Assembly (NCBI GenBank): GCA_016194635.1
Contig: JACQBC010000010.1
Span: forward strand, 62,001 to 126,000
Length of the DNA: 64,000 nt
Origin: Gammaproteobacteria bacterium
GTDB lineage: Bacteria > Pseudomonadota > Gammaproteobacteria > UBA6429 > Thiohalophilaceae
Reading direction: 5' to 3'
Below the pieces are notes generated by a model. It saw only the letters and a list, made by a program, of their open reading frames with translations. It did no database searches and was not told the DNA's origin. This document shows, one piece after another, positions 6,207-28,030 of the stretch (position 1 is its first letter; each line of letters opens with the position of its first letter). A program made the translations under genes and the position numbers.

Positions 6207-7532
6207 TTATTCACCGCCGGCGCCGGCCTGCCATTGGCTGATCTTAAACACCACAAACTCCGCCGGCCTGGCGATCGCCACGCCAATTTCCGTCACCACC
6301 TGTCCAAGGTCGCGGATCTCCGCTGGGTTGGTTTCGGCATCGCACTTTACATAAAAAGCCTCTTGCGGTGTATTGCCGAACAACGCACCGTCACGCCACA
6401 CATTGGTAAGATAAGCGGAAACGTTTAAAATAATTTTTGCCCAGAGATTAGGGGTGTTTGGTTCAAACACCACCCATTGCGTGCCTTTATCGATGGATTC
6501 ACGCAGGTAGAGGAACAGGCGCCGTACGGATATGTATTTCCATTCCCCATTGCGATCACCGCCCAGTGTTCGGGCCCCCCAGACACGAACATTACCATTC
6601 ATATAGCGAATACAATTGATACCAACAGGGTTAAGCCCGTCTTGCTGGCCCTTGCTTAACCGGTATTTTAAATCCGCCGGACTAGCCACCCCACGGATAA
6701 CTTCGTTGGCGGGCGCCTTGTGCACACCACGTTCTGCGTCAACCCTGGCGTAAATTCCCGCAATGTGTCCGCTGGGTGGAATAAAACGCTTTCCCGTACC
6801 TTCAGGAACCGTTATCTTCAACGCTGGATCGAAAACACTGAACCAGGGCGTGTAGACCGCGCCATAATTCGTATCGGTGGGTTCACCCAATTTAGTCCGG
6901 TCGAACATCCCATCGGATTCACTTTCCTCGGCACAATCCAAGATGGCAAAACGGTCGCCCATCTTTTCACAGTGGCTGATAATAGCGCTACGAACGTCTG
7001 AGTCTGTAATCCCCGGTGCGGCGACAATCGCGATCTCGTCGATCGATTCAAACCGTTCCAATGCAACGCTCATCAGTTTCGATTTGTCCTTTACCCTGAC
7101 AACATAGCAGCGGGTTCCGCCATTGTCGAAAAATCCATTAACCGCGTGCAATAATTTGCACTGTCCATCATCGTTAGAGAAATCACCCAATAAACGCTTG
7201 CACTCGCTTTTATTGGTAACCAATTTAATCTCACCTGCATCGACAGGTTTAAAATCCTTAGTAATAAATGGACTATTGGCGGGTATTGCCGCGCGTGCCG
7301 TTCGGCGCCGTACCGCGCCCGCGGTGGAATCGGCCGGATCCGCGGCCTCGGTCTCGGTCTCTGTCGCGGTTGATTTCTTAGAAGGATCGTAGTCGGGATT
7401 TTCCATTGGTATTTGCAGAGTGTCGGCAAAAATACCGATAAATCCCGCGGTACTGGTGCCTACCCCGACGATAGGTGCGATACCCGATGGGACTTCATGG
7501 ACATAAACGCCCGGCGAAAGATACGTAGCCAT
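6207..7532 (-). CDS. Contractile sheath protein (first paralogue)
   Basis: The 441-residue protein begins MATYLSPGVYVHEVPSG. I chose the ATG at 7530-7532 because AAGGAGA lies seven bases upstream; a longer reading to 7559 has no such site and lacks homology. The C-terminal half carries VRVWGARTLGG, WKYISVRRLFLYLRESID and EAFYVKCDAETNPAEI, the sheath signature. Residues of about 45-85 form a Thr/Glu/Ala/Arg-rich low-complexity insertion (TATETETEAADPADS) absent from the second paralogue and likely surface-exposed. The gene lies 33 bases after the cap gene. Its strong ribosome-binding site suggests that it is the major sheath subunit. Confidence 0.93.
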   Translation of the reverse strand: MATYLSPGVYVHEVPSGIAPIVGVGTSTAGFIGIFADTLQIPMENPDYDPSKKSTATETETEAADPADSTAGAVRRRTARAAIPANSPFITKDFKPVDAGEIKLVTNKSECKRLLGDFSNDDGQCKLLHAVNGFFDNGGTRCYVVRVKDKSKLMSVALERFESIDEIAIVAAPGITDSDVRSAIISHCEKMGDRFAILDCAEESESDGMFDRTKLGEPTDTNYGAVYTPWFSVFDPALKITVPEGTGKRFIPPSGHIAGIYARVDAERGVHKAPANEVIRGVASPADLKYRLSKGQQDGLNPVGINCIRYMNGNVRVWGARTLGGDRNGEWKYISVRRLFLYLRESIDKGTQWVVFEPNTPNLWAKIILNVSAYLTNVWRDGALFGNTPQEAFYVKCDAETNPAEIRDLGQVVTEIGVAIARPAEFVVFKISQWQAGAGGE

Positions 7533-7565
7533 TCGATTTCTCCTTAGATAGATTACCAATAACCA

Positions 7566-8141
7566 TTATTGAGTTTTAATTTCATTCTCAACCTGCACTT
7601 TTAATATCTTTTGTTTAACCAGTGGAACCTTCTGTGGTTTTTGCTTAGCAACGCTACTTATTACGGTACAACCTAAACCAAGTCGCGGTTGTATTCCGCA
7701 AAGCTTCCACAGAGAACTTACTTTGTCGTAACCAACCCTGTTTAATTTTAACCTTGCATTTTCCACCCGTGTATCGATATCGACATCTCGTAGCACGGAT
7801 TCCGGATTAACCTCATACGCCAATAGTGCGGTAAATATCTGACCCAGCAACCGGTGTTCGTCGTCGACAGTGTCGGCCCATGCGGTTATATAATATTCAC
7901 AGCTTAACCAGAATGGCGCGCGATGCTTTAATGCGATCCCATCCTGACCCTTGTCATACGACCACTCATTGCTTTTCATGTCTTCGTTTTCATTAATCTC
8001 GTACAAGAAACAATTTATACTCATGGGGTTTGGTTTATAACGTTGGCAAGGCGTATCGAAGTTGATATTCGTTTCCGCTACCGCATTATCCAGTCCCGTG
8101 GCCAGTATTGCCTTTAATACCGCGTCTATTTCGTGAAACAT
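7566..8141 (-). CDS. eCIS cap/terminator protein with DUF4255 domain (Afp16/Pvc16-like)
   Basis: A 191-residue protein with the DUF4255 (Pvc16 N-terminal domain) layout: short N-terminal helix (MFHEIDAVLKAILATGL), NINFDTP, then CFLYEINENEDMKSN and the hydrophobic core FWLSCEYYITAWADT followed by HRLLGQIFTALL. This domain caps and stabilises the distal end of the tube and sheath. Its position ahead of the sheath genes is the arrangement seen in several non-Afp eCIS types. The basic C-terminal tail (KPQKVPLVKQKILKVQ) has no domain I recognise. Confidence 0.85.
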   Translation of the reverse strand: MFHEIDAVLKAILATGLDNAVAETNINFDTPCQRYKPNPMSINCFLYEINENEDMKSNEWSYDKGQDGIALKHRAPFWLSCEYYITAWADTVDDEHRLLGQIFTALLAYEVNPESVLRDVDIDTRVENARLKLNRVGYDKVSSLWKLCGIQPRLGLGCTVISSVAKQKPQKVPLVKQKILKVQVENEIKTQ

Positions 8142-8430: not shown

Positions 8431-8990
8431 TGTCAACTGGATTTTTATTGAGTTACGAGCGAATACGTTTGCAATAGGCGTACCAACAAAAATCGGCCCG
8501 TGGTCCGTGGATTTATTGAGTTTAGGGTTCTAGGCGCACAGTGCGTTGGGTCTGATTCGACCCGGAAAAAAATGTATTATTAAATAAATATCAAATACCA
8601 GGCATAATTTAACACCCGCCTTTACCCGCCGCCGGGTAGACTATGACCCAACGACACTACATGTTTACCAAGACGTTCCAGCAACACCGCTTAATAGTAC
8701 TGAGTCACATGGACAGGATATCCCCTAACCAAGACAACGCCGTCAACACCTCCCTGTAGACTCGACAGCAGCATCCCTGCGGCGGACAGTCTTGGTGGGG
8801 GGTATCCTGTCCATACGCCGCATTAGCAAGTGAAATGTTTTTGTATTTCAGGGTGAAATTAAGTCACGTCATTAATGTAAATTTTTCACTACCACTACAA
8901 CTACATATCAACTAACGTTATCACATGGTCAATAATATTTGACTACCACTCTCACTTTATTATTTCTTACGAAGATATATGGAGGGAACG
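8431..8990. other. Intergenic region between eCIS operon and lipoprotein gene
   Basis: About 560 bases without a credible gene between divergently transcribed genes. It must hold both promoters; no consensus -35/-10 pair stands out on either strand. It contains small inverted repeats (gggtc TGATTC gaccc near 8549-8564 and cgcacagtgcg near 8535-8545) and hairpin element A (8709-8814). Upstream of the lipoprotein start the sequence is AT-rich with repeated cac-tac triplets (8887-8912). Confidence 0.6.
8709..8814 (-). repeat. Hairpin element A with conserved ~53-base core
   Basis: The left arm (8709-8735) and right arm (8789-8814) are inverted repeats: the outer 12 bases (atggacaggata) pair perfectly, the inner part (ending in ccaagac) with a few mismatches. 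The enclosed segment, read on the minus strand, contains gcagggatgctg, ctacaggga and acggcgt in that order. The same core occurs in element B at 9713-9765 on the plus strand; I count 42 of 53 positions identical. The arms of the two elements are unrelated. It lies between divergent genes, so it is not simply a shared terminator. Confidence 0.85.
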
Positions 8991-9572
8991 ATGAAGTCAT
9001 ATTTCACAGTATTATGCAGTACATTATTATTTGCGTGTGCCAACACTCAAAGTCCGGAAGACGCCCAGGCTATGGCGTCATATGTCGGCGGATTATTAAA
9101 GGATGCGGCGTCGAAGGAGATCGACAAGAACACCAGGATTAATAATATGGAAGTGTCTCAGAAGTTAGGCAATACGGTTAGTTTGCGTGTTTCCTATGGG
9201 AATTTATATAAACCCGATGGCGTAGTAGTTCAGGTCAAGGCACTTGATAATGGTGTCAGGATCCCCGGCATACAAAGCACGATTGGAACCCCCGGATCAA
9301 TCAATGGCGGAGTCGACTTAGCCCTCACCTGGAAAGATGCGCGTTTGGGCAGGTCATTGCGATCGAATCAAATTACCGTGGAATTTTCTCGTGATGGCAA
9401 TGTCTTTAAGTCGCGCACCTTTGAACTAACAAAACAATGGACCGCGTTAACCGAACCCGATGCGGATTCGCCGCAGTCCACCGCAACGGCCACGAGTAAC
9501 CCGTCACCGCTACGTATTCCACCGATATATGTCCCATTACGCCCCGCCAAAACCACGGTCGATACTAAATAG
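8991..9572 (+). CDS. Small lipoprotein of unknown function
   Basis: 193 residues from the ATG at 8991, chosen because GGAGG lies six bases upstream; an ATG at 8979 overlaps that ribosome-binding site. The N-terminus MKSYFTVLCSTLLFAC is a short lipoprotein signal with lipobox LFAC (Cys16). The mature part is beta-rich (VSLRVSYGNLYKPDGVVVQV, then ITVEFSRDGNVFKSRTFEL) and ends in a Pro/Ser/Thr linker. I recognise no family. It is monocistronic, followed by a terminator at 9603-9633, and flanked by hairpin elements A and B. Possibly an envelope adhesin or stress lipoprotein, but that is a guess. Confidence 0.75.
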   Translation: MKSYFTVLCSTLLFACANTQSPEDAQAMASYVGGLLKDAASKEIDKNTRINNMEVSQKLGNTVSLRVSYGNLYKPDGVVVQVKALDNGVRIPGIQSTIGTPGSINGGVDLALTWKDARLGRSLRSNQITVEFSRDGNVFKSRTFELTKQWTALTEPDADSPQSTATATSNPSPLRIPPIYVPLRPAKTTVDTK

Positions 9573-9602
9573 CTGCTTGGCCGTATCACACACCGCTATT
9601 TA

Positions 9603-9633
9603 AACCAGGATTCATCAGAGTCCTGGTTTTTTT
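9603..9633 (+). terminator. Rho-independent terminator of the lipoprotein gene
   Basis: A perfect 8-bp stem aaccagga/tcctggtt (9603-9610 with 9621-9628) runs into a stretch of seven T residues ending at 9633, 31 bases after the lipoprotein stop codon. Confidence 0.85.
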
Positions 9634-9676
9634 GGGTCTCAATCCACCGGTTTTAATTCGGTGTCACCTACTAAAG

Positions 9677-9800
9677 CCTGCGATGATAAAGCGCTCCTGC
9701 GCCGGCGGCGGGTGTCGGCAGCAGGGATGCTGACGTCAAGCCTACAGAGACGTATTCACGGCGTCCCACCGCCGGCGCAGGAGCGCTTTATCATCGCAGG
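9677..9800. repeat. Hairpin element B: perfect 32-bp inverted repeat around the conserved core
   Basis: The arms 9677-9708 and 9769-9800 are exact reverse complements over 32 bases (beginning cctgcgatgataaagcgctc). Between them lies the core also found in element A: gcagcagggatgctg, then cctacagaga and cacggcgtc. The element fills the space between two convergent genes: it starts 43 bases after the lipoprotein terminator and ends two bases before the stop codon of the regulator gene. It could end transcription from the minus side, but the conserved core is not explained by that role. Confidence 0.9.
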
Positions 9801-9802
9801 TC

Positions 9803-11197
9803 TTAGTAATTCTGCCTTGAGTAAGTAATATTATATTTCTTGAGCAACTTGCCCAGCGCGCGCCGTTCCTTACCGGCTATTTTTGCCGCCATACTGACAT
9901 TGCCGTGTGTTTGATTGATGATCCAGTTCAAGAATGCCTTTTCAAATTCATGGATTGTATGACTCTTAGCGTCATTAAAGCTCATATTAAACAGCTTGCT
10001 CATGCGTCGGTCCGTAAGTGACGAGCGTCTTTCCTGCCCCTCTGTATTAGAATTGCAATGGGTTATCGCTTGAGCATCGGAAAGCAAGAACATTCGATGT
10101 ATCGTGTTCTCCAGCTCGCGCACATTCCCTGGCCATGAATAACTCTCCAACCACTGTAGAGCGTTCTTATGTAAATACTTGTCGCCTTGCTTATAACACT
10201 CGCGGCAATTCGCCACGAATTTTTCCGCGAGAATAGCTATGTCGCCAAAACGCTCACGCAACGGTGGCAAGGTCATTGACAAGATATTTATCCGAAAATA
10301 CAAGTCCTCGCGGAATAGCCCGGCGTCAACGTTCTTGCGTAGGTTCGCATTGGTCGCCGCCATGATCCGCACATCCGCCTGAGAATAGCGTTTCGCGCCC
10401 AGCGAACGGTATTGTTGGTCTTGCAAGAACCGCAACAAGGTAACCTGCGCCTTGGGTGACAAGGAGTCGATTTCATCCAAGAATAACGTTCCACCGTTGG
10501 CTTCTGCGATCAAACCAACCTGGGCGTATTTGGCGTCCGTATACGCGCCTTTTTCATGGCCGAACAATTCATTTTCCAACAGATTATCCGGAATCGCGCC
10601 ACAATTGACTGGAACAAAGGGATGGTCGCGTCTGGCGCTGAGGTAATGTATCGCGCGGGCGGTAACTTCCTTGCCGGTGCCCGTTTCACCTTCAATCAAT
10701 ACTGCCGCGTCACACCGCGCCATCTTTTTAATCAAGTTTAAGGCTTGGGCAAAACGTGGCGATTTTCCTAGAAGATTTAATCCGGTAAATTCCGCATACT
10801 CTAGATCGGGTTGGGGACTTGCGCAATTTTCTAGTTTTTCACTATTCGACAATCGCTCAAGCCTACATACCAACTCCTGCTCATGGCAAGGCCAGGTGGT
10901 AAAATCGTCACACAGGTCAAATAAATTGAAGGCATCGGATATTTTATTATCGTCCACAATACCAAACGCCAAAGGCCGATTATCCTTGCCCAAATGATCC
11001 CGTAACGCGACAGATTGGATAACCTCGGTATCAAGCAGTAAGATTGAAATGCTATCCTCCATCAGCCGCTTTGATGAAATCCAGGCATCACACCCCATCA
11101 CTTCAACAGGATAGCCCATTTTAAGCATCATAGTGCGCACCGAATCGCTACAAATTGCTTTGCTAAAAGGCACGAGGTTTAACTGTGTTCTCTCCAT
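9803..11197 (-). CDS. Enhancer-binding-type transcription regulator with non-canonical GAFTGA loop
   Basis: A 464-residue NtrC-type protein. Residues 1-118 resemble a degenerate receiver domain (SILLLDTEV keeps one Asp, but the acidic pocket and the conserved Lys are not evident). Residues ~140-370 form the AAA+ core: Walker A GETGTGKE (170-177), Walker B GGTLFLDEID (235-244), and ERFGDIAILAEKF. The C-terminus (~415-460) is a Fis-like helix-turn-helix (GNVSMAAKIAGKERRALGKL). The sigma-54-contacting loop reads GAYTDA (217-222) instead of GAFTGA. Such proteins, like VpsR of Vibrio, may work with sigma-70 polymerase. The target is unknown; it stands alone, convergent with the lipoprotein gene. 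Confidence 0.85.
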   Translation of the reverse strand: MERTQLNLVPFSKAICSDSVRTMMLKMGYPVEVMGCDAWISSKRLMEDSISILLLDTEVIQSVALRDHLGKDNRPLAFGIVDDNKISDAFNLFDLCDDFTTWPCHEQELVCRLERLSNSEKLENCASPQPDLEYAEFTGLNLLGKSPRFAQALNLIKKMARCDAAVLIEGETGTGKEVTARAIHYLSARRDHPFVPVNCGAIPDNLLENELFGHEKGAYTDAKYAQVGLIAEANGGTLFLDEIDSLSPKAQVTLLRFLQDQQYRSLGAKRYSQADVRIMAATNANLRKNVDAGLFREDLYFRINILSMTLPPLRERFGDIAILAEKFVANCRECYKQGDKYLHKNALQWLESYSWPGNVRELENTIHRMFLLSDAQAITHCNSNTEGQERRSSLTDRRMSKLFNMSFNDAKSHTIHEFEKAFLNWIINQTHGNVSMAAKIAGKERRALGKLLKKYNITYSRQNY

Positions 11198-26380: not shown

Positions 26381-28030
26381 TTACAAAATATGCGACACCA
26401 TCTCGCGTAAAATACGCCGCTTTATCCACTTGTTAGTTATCGCGGTATTCGCCCACCACCAGCCATCGTGTTGCATCGCACGCGCTGCTGCAACAATCTT
26501 GTCCGCCACGGTTGCGAAATCGCTTGGTGTATAGTCCAGGCTGAAAATGAAGCGGCCGGTGCCCACCCAGCTTAACGCCAGGCCCTCCGCGGCCAGGTAA
26601 TATTGCAGCATCCAGTTGTAACGCGACGGCGTGGTGTACCACGCGGTCCAAACGGAGGACAGGTTGGCAAACCGCAGTGGCAACCCTTCCACCTGTAAAC
26701 GCTGATTGAGCTGCCCGGCCCGGCCATCCCACACTTCATCCAGAGTCTGGTAAAGGGCGAGAACTTCCGCCGAGTCCAGTTGTTGCAGAAACTCGTCCAT
26801 TGCCGCCATCACATAGGGGTGGGAGTTAAAGGTGCCACGCGCAAAACAGATATCCGCGGGATGATCCGCGCGAAATCGCTGCATTAACGCTTTTCGTCCA
26901 CACACCACACCGATCGGTAGCCCGCCGCCAAGGGTTTTTCCATAGGTGACCATGTCCGCTTTTATACCGAAATACTCTTGCGCGCCGCCCCGGGCCAGAC
27001 GAAACCCGGTAAACACTTCATCGAATATCAATACGATGTTGCGCTCGTGACAGACGCTGCGTAGTTGCTGCAGCCAATCACTGTAGGCTTGTCGGTCGAA
27101 ATGGGCACGCCGTGAACTGTCCACCAACGAGGAATCGCCTGGGGCATTGGCATTAGGATGTAACGCCTGTAACGGATTCACCAACACGCAGGCGATGTCC
27201 TTGCGTGTACGTAATACCCGTAAGGTCGCCTCGTCCATCTCTTTTAAGGTGTAAGTTTCATGCGCCGGCACGGGATTGCCAATACCCGGTTGCACATCGC
27301 CCCACCAGCCGTGGTATGCTCCGCAGAAACGCACCAGATGCGAACGCCGCGTGTGGTAACGCGCCAACCGCACAGCTTGCATGACCGCTTCGGTCCCCGA
27401 CATGTGAAATGACACCGCATCCAATCCTGAAATACGTTTCAGCCGCGTGACATTCTGGGTAATAATCGGATGATACCTGCCCAGCACCGGCCCCAGCGCC
27501 GCGACGCGCTCAGTGCCGCGCACCAAACATTTTTTATAAAAATCGTAACCCAATAGATTGACACCGTAAGAACCGGCAAGATCGTAGAATGAATTATCAT
27601 CGAGATCCGTCAAGGTCACGCCCGACGACGCCGTGACGAAAACGCCGGTTTTCAGGTGTGTACGCACGTAACGGCTGAACTGGAAGGGAACACGGTACAC
27701 ATGGGTGAAGTGCAGATCGGGGAGGCTGGCATAAACCTCGGCGGTGAGTTGGACCGTCGCCGCGAAACGCGCGCGAAAAACATCGGCAAGACGCATGAAG
27801 CCCGTGCGTCGGCGCGCGGCAATGTCATCGGGCGCGTCATCCGAACAAAAAAAATACACCTCGTCGTACTCGTAAAAAGGTATGATCGCCGCCAATCGCC
27901 GCGCCATCCTGGAATGACCGGACAGCGAAGGGTGCTTGGCCAGGGAAAGCTGCAATCGCGTGACAAGTTTTGACAGAACAAAGACGATGGCCGTCGCGCC
28001 CAAGATATACACTAGCAACTTGCTGTACAT
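26381..28030 (-). CDS. Membrane-anchored class III aminotransferase (glutamate-1-semialdehyde aminomutase-like)
   Basis: 549 residues from the ATG at 28028-28030 (GAGGAA just upstream; an ATG at 28042 is also possible). One N-terminal membrane helix (residues ~4-25) precedes an extra ~110-residue domain and then a fold-type I PLP enzyme: FHMSGTEAVMQAVRLARYHT, FCGAYHGWWGD, LIFDEVFTGFRLARGG (cofactor Asp ~337) and the PLP-Lys in TYGKTLGGG (~365), ending with CFARGTFNSHPYVM. It resembles HemL-type and aminotransferase modules of polyketide pathways more than true HemL, which has no membrane anchor and is ~430 residues. It is divergent from Psd, 107 bases apart, so it may make or modify an amine-bearing lipid or secondary metabolite. 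Confidence 0.8.
   Translation of the reverse strand: MYSKLLVYILGATAIVFVLSKLVTRLQLSLAKHPSLSGHSRMARRLAAIIPFYEYDEVYFFCSDDAPDDIAARRRTGFMRLADVFRARFAATVQLTAEVYASLPDLHFTHVYRVPFQFSRYVRTHLKTGVFVTASSGVTLTDLDDNSFYDLAGSYGVNLLGYDFYKKCLVRGTERVAALGPVLGRYHPIITQNVTRLKRISGLDAVSFHMSGTEAVMQAVRLARYHTRRSHLVRFCGAYHGWWGDVQPGIGNPVPAHETYTLKEMDEATLRVLRTRKDIACVLVNPLQALHPNANAPGDSSLVDSSRRAHFDRQAYSDWLQQLRSVCHERNIVLIFDEVFTGFRLARGGAQEYFGIKADMVTYGKTLGGGLPIGVVCGRKALMQRFRADHPADICFARGTFNSHPYVMAAMDEFLQQLDSAEVLALYQTLDEVWDGRAGQLNQRLQVEGLPLRFANLSSVWTAWYTTPSRYNWMLQYYLAAEGLALSWVGTGRFIFSLDYTPSDFATVADKIVAAARAMQHDGWWWANTAITNKWIKRRILREMVSHIL

Follow-up and report, generated by a model that had tools for sequence, protein, structure and literature searches.

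Dispersed inverted-repeat elements of a superfamily that includes YPAL/RU-2 share a three-way junction and paired CsrA-type hairpin loops in Gammaproteobacteria

What are the two hairpins that bracket a lipoprotein-like gene in this gammaproteobacterial genome, and how can they share a core when their stems differ? A first-pass annotation of the window (the whole 64,000-nt stretch analysed) had described two inverted repeats enclosing the same core in opposite orientation, and both are present essentially where it had placed them. The cores of element A (8737-8788) and element B (9713-9764) are inverted relative to each other and match at 81% over 52 nt, close to the 42 of 53 positions originally counted. 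Element A is an approximately 134-bp copy at 8695-8828, with its core on the minus strand; on the plus strand it runs TAGTACTGAGTCACATGG ... CCATACGCCGCATTAGCA, the end motif at G000:C13:70695 corresponding to window position 8695, and its outer arms of ∼28 nt are followed inwards by an imperfect stretch. Element B, an approximately 140-bp copy of a second family with its core on the plus strand (9669-9808; TACTAAAGCC ... GGTCTTAGTA), is an inverted repeat in which 44-nt arms (9669-9712, pairing with 9765-9808) are 93% complementary and flank the 52-nt core. Its RNA fold was predicted at -103.8 kcal/mol, with a z of -13.

The lipoprotein-like ORF between the elements (8991-9572 on the plus strand, with a probable start at 8991 inside ORF 8979-9572) showed no relationship to the repeats, and a terminator-like hairpin of its own lies at 9602-9629. 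The outer end of the right arm of B overlaps the stop codon of a minus-strand ORF (9803-11197) named by eye as an NtrC-like sigma-54 regulator, so that the insertion may have replaced the end of this gene. Immediately left of element A is a further inverted repeat of 22 nt (8544-8565 and 8632-8653, 82% complementary, 66 nt apart). Beyond it, the minus strand at 6207-8141 holds ORFs whose translations resemble, by eye, the sheath protein of a contractile tail and a small partner protein, which suggests a contractile injection or phage-tail-like locus adjoining the elements.

Searches of the source genome with the core, as the first-pass annotation had proposed, readily found further copies. The core pattern gave 37 exact matches in 3.7 Mb and none for a reversed-pattern control, so the recurrence of the core in A and B is not due to chance. 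BLAST found 40 copies, and BLAST, pattern and model matches combined amounted to at least 53 distinct copies. On individual inspection, the copies fell into three or more arm types. Family A, to which element A belongs, comprises about 50 copies with arms and ends in common and the termini TACTAATGAG or TATTACTGAG. B and one other copy (L002) share their inner arm and have different, self-complementary outer arms. The third type (L003-L006 and L018) has other arms again, and in most of its copies the P2 stem (see below) is changed to GGCGGC-AGGGAT-GCCGCC. The statement that the stems have nothing in common is thus right for A versus B and wrong within family A. Likewise, the stem conservation that had been named as the mark of simple duplication is seen among the ∼50 copies of family A, while a comparison of different genomes and families shows arms that are free but self-complementary. 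Family A has two distinguishable ends, and the order in which they flank the core differs between copies (L011 and L022 versus L017 and L019); it looks as if the core had been inverted between its arms. A search of the source genome for the family A end motif returned 102 matches, mostly in pairs ∼110 bp apart; those listed were mostly paired MITE ends, and no autonomous partner with these ends was recognized.

The core and its arms fold into a three-way junction of long free arms (P1), a hairpin with a variable stem (P2) and a conserved hairpin (P3). This structure was first drawn by eye, after which 90 copies were aligned with MAFFT; RNAalifold independently returned exactly the same 29 pairs. 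In the 90-copy alignment, 93.8% of cells were paired compared with 64.2% after shuffling, and 778 cells were changed on both sides, compared with 219 after shuffling and 147-216 in slid controls. Across genomes, such double-sided changes were found in 14 of 14 arm pairs and nine of nine P2 pairs. The aligned copies had been pre-selected for at least six of seven P2 pairs formed, and P2 pairing in the alignment is therefore partly a product of selection, with no such selection on the arms; under a looser rule, the P2 hairpin was present in 233 of 274 copies. In approximately 11 of the 90 copies, tandem G.A mismatches occur at the same place in P1 (alignment A3, columns 10-11 with 76-77); tandem GA pairs have also been reported for a TwoAYGGAY stem (PMC4333381). 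At the level of the superfamily, these data support the original proposal that selection acts on structure rather than on arm sequence. The contrast that had inspired it compares members of two different families, and this part of the argument does not hold.

Covariance model R1 was trained on these 90 copies, with B included and A left out. It matched B at 9699-9779 on the plus strand with 85.8 bits (E 3e-19), and A at 8721-8802 on the minus strand with 57.6 bits (E 3.7e-12). In B, P2 spans 9713-9738 (loop AGGGAU at 9723-9728; model alignment and covariation) and P3 spans 9740-9762 (loop AGAGAC at 9746-9751; model alignment). In A, sequence and model alignment place the C-G-closed P2 hexaloop AGGGAU at 8773-8778 and the P3 hexaloop AGGGAG, within UCUAC-AGGGAG-GU, at 8750-8755, both on the minus strand.

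Mismatches within the arms indicate which strand is selected. If the element functioned as a duplex or cruciform, or if its palindrome were merely corrected, G.T and A.C mismatches should be equally frequent on the core strand. Instead, we counted 89 G.T versus 16 A.C mismatches (p=2e-13; one representative for each of 85 arm clusters, symmetric scoring). Much stricter clustering left 22 versus 4, in 11 clusters versus two. In P2 alone there were 13 G.T and 5 A.C mismatches (p=0.10), a sample too small for use. The G.T excess means that the structure is kept on the core-sense single strand, and there is strong support for selection of the structure on one single strand, most simply an RNA; we infer RNA rather than single-stranded DNA. 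Of the two possibilities raised in the first-pass annotation, the folded RNA thus gains support at superfamily level, the mismatches being strand-asymmetric as for a folded single strand, while the same asymmetry disfavours a cruciform in double-stranded DNA.

Beyond the source genome, model matches were obtained in 78 of 369 gammaproteobacterial genomes and in 70 of 272 genera, i.e. about a quarter. A phylum-wide sample yielded 28 genomes with matches, all of them Gammaproteobacteria. A collection scan returned at least 119 loci; among the matches listed, 117 were gammaproteobacterial (including Marinobacter, Microbulbifer, Stenotrophomonas, Methylococcales, Chromatiales, Rheinheimera, Yersinia and Pectobacterium), one lay on an alphaproteobacterial MAG contig and one was unranked. 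When the search pattern placed no constraint on the P3 loop, 40 of the 369 genomes gave matches, compared with none for the reversed control. Exact-pattern copies numbered at least 373 in Methylotuvimicrobium buryatense 5G, 129 in Methylocucumis oryzae, 34 in Marinobacter salexigens, 31 in Marinimicrobium, 27 in Catenovulum and 24 in Microbulbifer rhizosphaerae. Across families the core is conserved, with differing ends and arms.

Mobility, the other part of the original proposal, was borne out by a pair of sites in Methylotuvimicrobium. The empty site GGACATTAGAATT (G416 and G419) corresponds to GGACAT-TA-[TACC...GGTA]-TA-GAATT in the occupied genome (G417). In this methylotroph family, which has conserved TATACC/GGTATA ends at the TA insertion, the TA target is duplicated as in MITEs of the IS630/Tc1 type. 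In a second comparison, two neighbouring copies were absent in related species. The presence/absence comparison that had been suggested could thus be made at the Methylotuvimicrobium TA site; for A and B, eight relatives offered no syntenic flank in which to find an orthologous empty site. A and B themselves resemble MITEs in being non-coding, shorter than 200 bp (134 and 140 bp), present in at least 53 copies and bounded by terminal inverted repeats. Of 193 copies in 1.6 Mb of M. buryatense, 192 were intergenic, with intergenic DNA making up 23% of the sequence. In some M. buryatense copies (G283:C1, e.g. at 27552, 160580, 176000 and 204727), the P2 hairpin contains another repeat, for example GCAGATTTTTGCTCCTGCAAAATCTGCATTCATGCCATCCATGGCAATC, which looks like a nested insertion. 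Dispersal, TA insertion in Methylotuvimicrobium, intergenic placement and the conserved three-way junction together establish a mobile, multi-copy, structured element.

Relative to genes, the copies are orientated almost at random. In the 1.6 Mb of M. buryatense, 57 copies were sense, 60 antisense, 39 convergent and 36 divergent, approximately the random expectation for intergenic DNA, and most copies are accordingly not placed for sense transcription. The scored copies of the source genome were convergent in 15 cases, antisense in 15, sense in four and divergent in none (simple ORF caller). A cis-acting 3′ UTR role in fixed orientation was not supported, given the near-random orientation in M. 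buryatense and the antisense bias in the source genome. As raw counts in M. buryatense, loop retention was slightly higher downstream of a sense gene (89 of 96 versus 82 of 96).

The hairpin loops suggest a candidate ligand. In copies that were chosen without regard to P2 loop content, and whose P2 stems otherwise vary widely, the P2 loop has the composition A (.99), N, G (.99), G (.99), A (.98), N, and the bases on either side are C (.94) and G (.95); the closing pair was C-G in 92 of 104 distinct P2 stems. P3 is nearly invariant as UAC-ANGGAN-GUA, and its loop was ANGGAN in nearly all matches listed even though the search pattern had left it free. Within one M. buryatense family of 108 copies, divergence along the loop was 2% (A), 24% (N), 4% (G), 6% (G), 3% (A) and 18% (N), and the arms diverged by 12%. 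Judged by sequence, such paired, C-G-closed ANGGAN hexaloops match the recognition motif of CsrA/RsmA. The CsrA site selected by SELEX is RUACARGGAUGU, with ACA and GGA 100% conserved and a preference for a hairpin loop (PMC4347634), and ANGGAN hexaloops are known from structural work on CsrA/RsmA (PMC3791407). Element A has kept both loop motifs; B has kept that of P2 and lost the GGA of P3. The GGA triplets of P2 and P3 are separated by 20 nt in sequence, which would suit a single CsrA dimer. The source genome has a csrA gene, as do 36 of the 40 genomes searched; two copy-bearing genomes gave no csrA match (G021 and G044), and both are fragmented or incomplete. Our literature search returned nothing relevant for the core sequence itself and no report that links CsrA to YPAL, Ysr224 or such repeats or MITEs; as the search covered open-access papers, this absence is weak evidence.

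We consider it somewhat more probable than the contrary that A and B are MITE-like, non-autonomous mobile elements of a superfamily that includes YPAL/RU-2, and that their transcribed copies are putative CsrA docking modules. From the loop sequences we infer that a single CsrA/RsmA dimer would bind the P2 and P3 ANGGAN hexaloops of a transcribed copy together, and that the long P1 stem would hold the module in place and stabilize it. Each transcribed copy could then act as a decoy or as a cis handle on the mRNA that carries it. DNA transposases, whose involvement we assume, would move the element DNA via its family-specific ends. The main weakness of the CsrA reading is that the orientation of the insertions does not favour sense transcription, and hence either a minority of copies is active or selection operates during transposition.

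In a rival explanation, the core is a single-stranded-DNA recognition structure: a transposase, either HUH/Y1-like or active at the replication fork, would recognize the folded core strand through contacts with the ANGGAN loops, and the likeness to CsrA sites would be accidental. We regard this as unlikely, yet it would account for a core conserved across families despite different ends and arms; the random orientation would suit a selfish element, and a hairpin of single-stranded DNA tolerates G.T mismatches as well. We know of no transposase that recognizes such ANGGAN hairpins. YPAL is reported to insert close to dyad symmetries and to make duplications of 3-26 bp (PMC2229807), which also agrees with such a mechanism; the TA insertion and conserved TATACC/GGTATA ends of the methylotroph family, however, look like ordinary end-driven DNA transposition. 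Moreover, the constant loop positions are precisely those that CsrA reads and the variable ones those that it does not, which speaks against this rival.

Two further explanations dispense with a specific role for the loops or with structural selection altogether. Long, near-perfectly complementary arms of wholly different sequence between copies are what one would expect if quasi-palindromes were simply perfected by template switching at the fork. This purely mutational origin is improbable, because correction of a duplex gives no reason for the 89 to 16 excess of G.T over A.C on the core strand, nor does it explain why the short P2 stem and the two-pair helix beneath it covary. Strong hairpins in intergenic DNA could be ordinary transcription terminators, mRNA-end stabilizers or RNase III sites, and ERIC and YPAL RNAs are reported to affect neighbouring mRNA (PMC2229807). 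We give this the least credence: no T-run follows A or B in the window, the lipoprotein gene is followed by a terminator-like hairpin of its own, M. buryatense copies show no preference for gene 3′ ends, and a terminator needs neither the conserved ANGGAN loops nor the three-way junction.

Should CsrA bind, the superfamily would be a mobile carrier of sites bound by a global post-transcriptional regulator, and copy numbers such as the at least 373 of the model methanotroph M. buryatense 5G would be high enough to affect free CsrA. More speculatively, and with clearly less confidence than we place in the reading of A and B, the superfamily may have planted CsrA-docking RNA modules by the tens to hundreds in the intergenic DNA of roughly a quarter of gammaproteobacterial genera, with loops and fold kept because the element or its host depends on CsrA binding, and with transposition rewiring the Csr regulon. 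If so, a sense-transcribed copy would titrate CsrA or put the adjoining mRNA under CsrA control. The CsrA question is directly testable in culturable strains.

How do these elements relate to known systems? At gathering score, Rfam returned nothing on the window or on 12 loci. A likeness to the paired loops is seen in the Rfam family TwoAYGGAY (RF01731), two adjacent AYGGAY-loop hairpins on a poorly conserved outer stem, predicted to bind CsrA by Gardner and Eldai (PMC4333381) and placed in clan CL00106 together with CsrB. Its model aligned with one Marinobacter copy over the full length and on the correct strand, at 28.3 bits and thus below the gathering score of 43, and did not match A or B at E<=10; unlike our elements, TwoAYGGAY has not been described as a mobile repeat. 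CsrB and RsmX/Y/Z likewise present paired GGA hairpin loops as docking sites for CsrA/RsmA, but they are single, dedicated sRNA genes with many sites, whereas the elements reported here are dispersed two-site mobile modules with no recognized promoter, and model R1 did not match E. coli csrB. ERIC (RU-1) is a TA-bounded MITE whose ends TATACTCGTCATACTTCAAGTTGC resemble one M. buryatense arm family TATACCCATCGCACTTCAAATTTC at 17 of 24 positions by eye. It lacks ANGGAN hairpins, however, and was rejected as the same family because model R1 gave no match to it. GTAG/CGTC REPs are palindromes of 20-40 bp with one unpaired GTAG or CGTC end, and CGTC REP stems start with AT pairs and have loops of 4-5 nt (PMC3733652); they were rejected on structure, our elements being 134-140 bp three-way junctions with hexaloops.

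The closest relative is YPAL/RU-2, and the elements that the first-pass annotation could not name can be named as an extension of it. This Yersinia palindromic element, known as a MITE, is 167-168 bp long and present in Yersinia and Erwinia/Pectobacterium. The RU-2 sequence printed in Table 1b of PMC2759123 holds the entire core cgtccgcgccaaggatggcgcggctcgagcctacatggatgtatttacggcgt, and model R1 scored the Yersinia and Pectobacterium copies at 71.0 and 65.7 bits. The arms and ends of YPAL/RU-2 are unlike those of the elements described here, whose ends are TACTAA..TTAGTA; it is reported to make target duplications of 3-26 bp and to have no TA ends (PMC2229807), whereas the methylotroph family duplicates TA. 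Because of these differences, we file A and B, which both carry the P2-P3 core within a palindrome as members of the superfamily do, under a wider superfamily and not under YPAL itself. The YPAL/RU-2 literature, as far as it was accessible, does not mention a wide superfamily, a three-way junction or a CsrA motif. The Enterobacterales form has an entry in Rfam as the sRNA Ysr224 (RF02770), whose consensus is the reverse complement of the core and one arm. This model exceeded its gathering score on the antisense strand of the Yersinia and Pectobacterium copies (L169:7888-7994 and L187:638-745) and fell below it in A, B and the other genera tested. It appears to describe the strand opposite the conserved structure; the left arm is missing from it, and its structure is unlike the covarying three-way junction. 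For this opposite-strand annotation, Ysr224 is reported as expressed in Yersinia: its transcript responds to temperature (PMC9029176), and in Y. ruckeri it is multi-copy with different expression profiles (PMC12112432). The Ysr224 and RU-2 matches show that the Enterobacterales member was already known, both as a MITE (PMC2229807) and, as a transcript, as an sRNA. Only this Yersinia form appears to have been described previously, and the wide superfamily, its fold and its paired CsrA-type loops appear to be new. A Yersinia MITE, an opposite-strand Rfam sRNA and the unexplained repeats of dozens of genera thus come together as one family with one fold.
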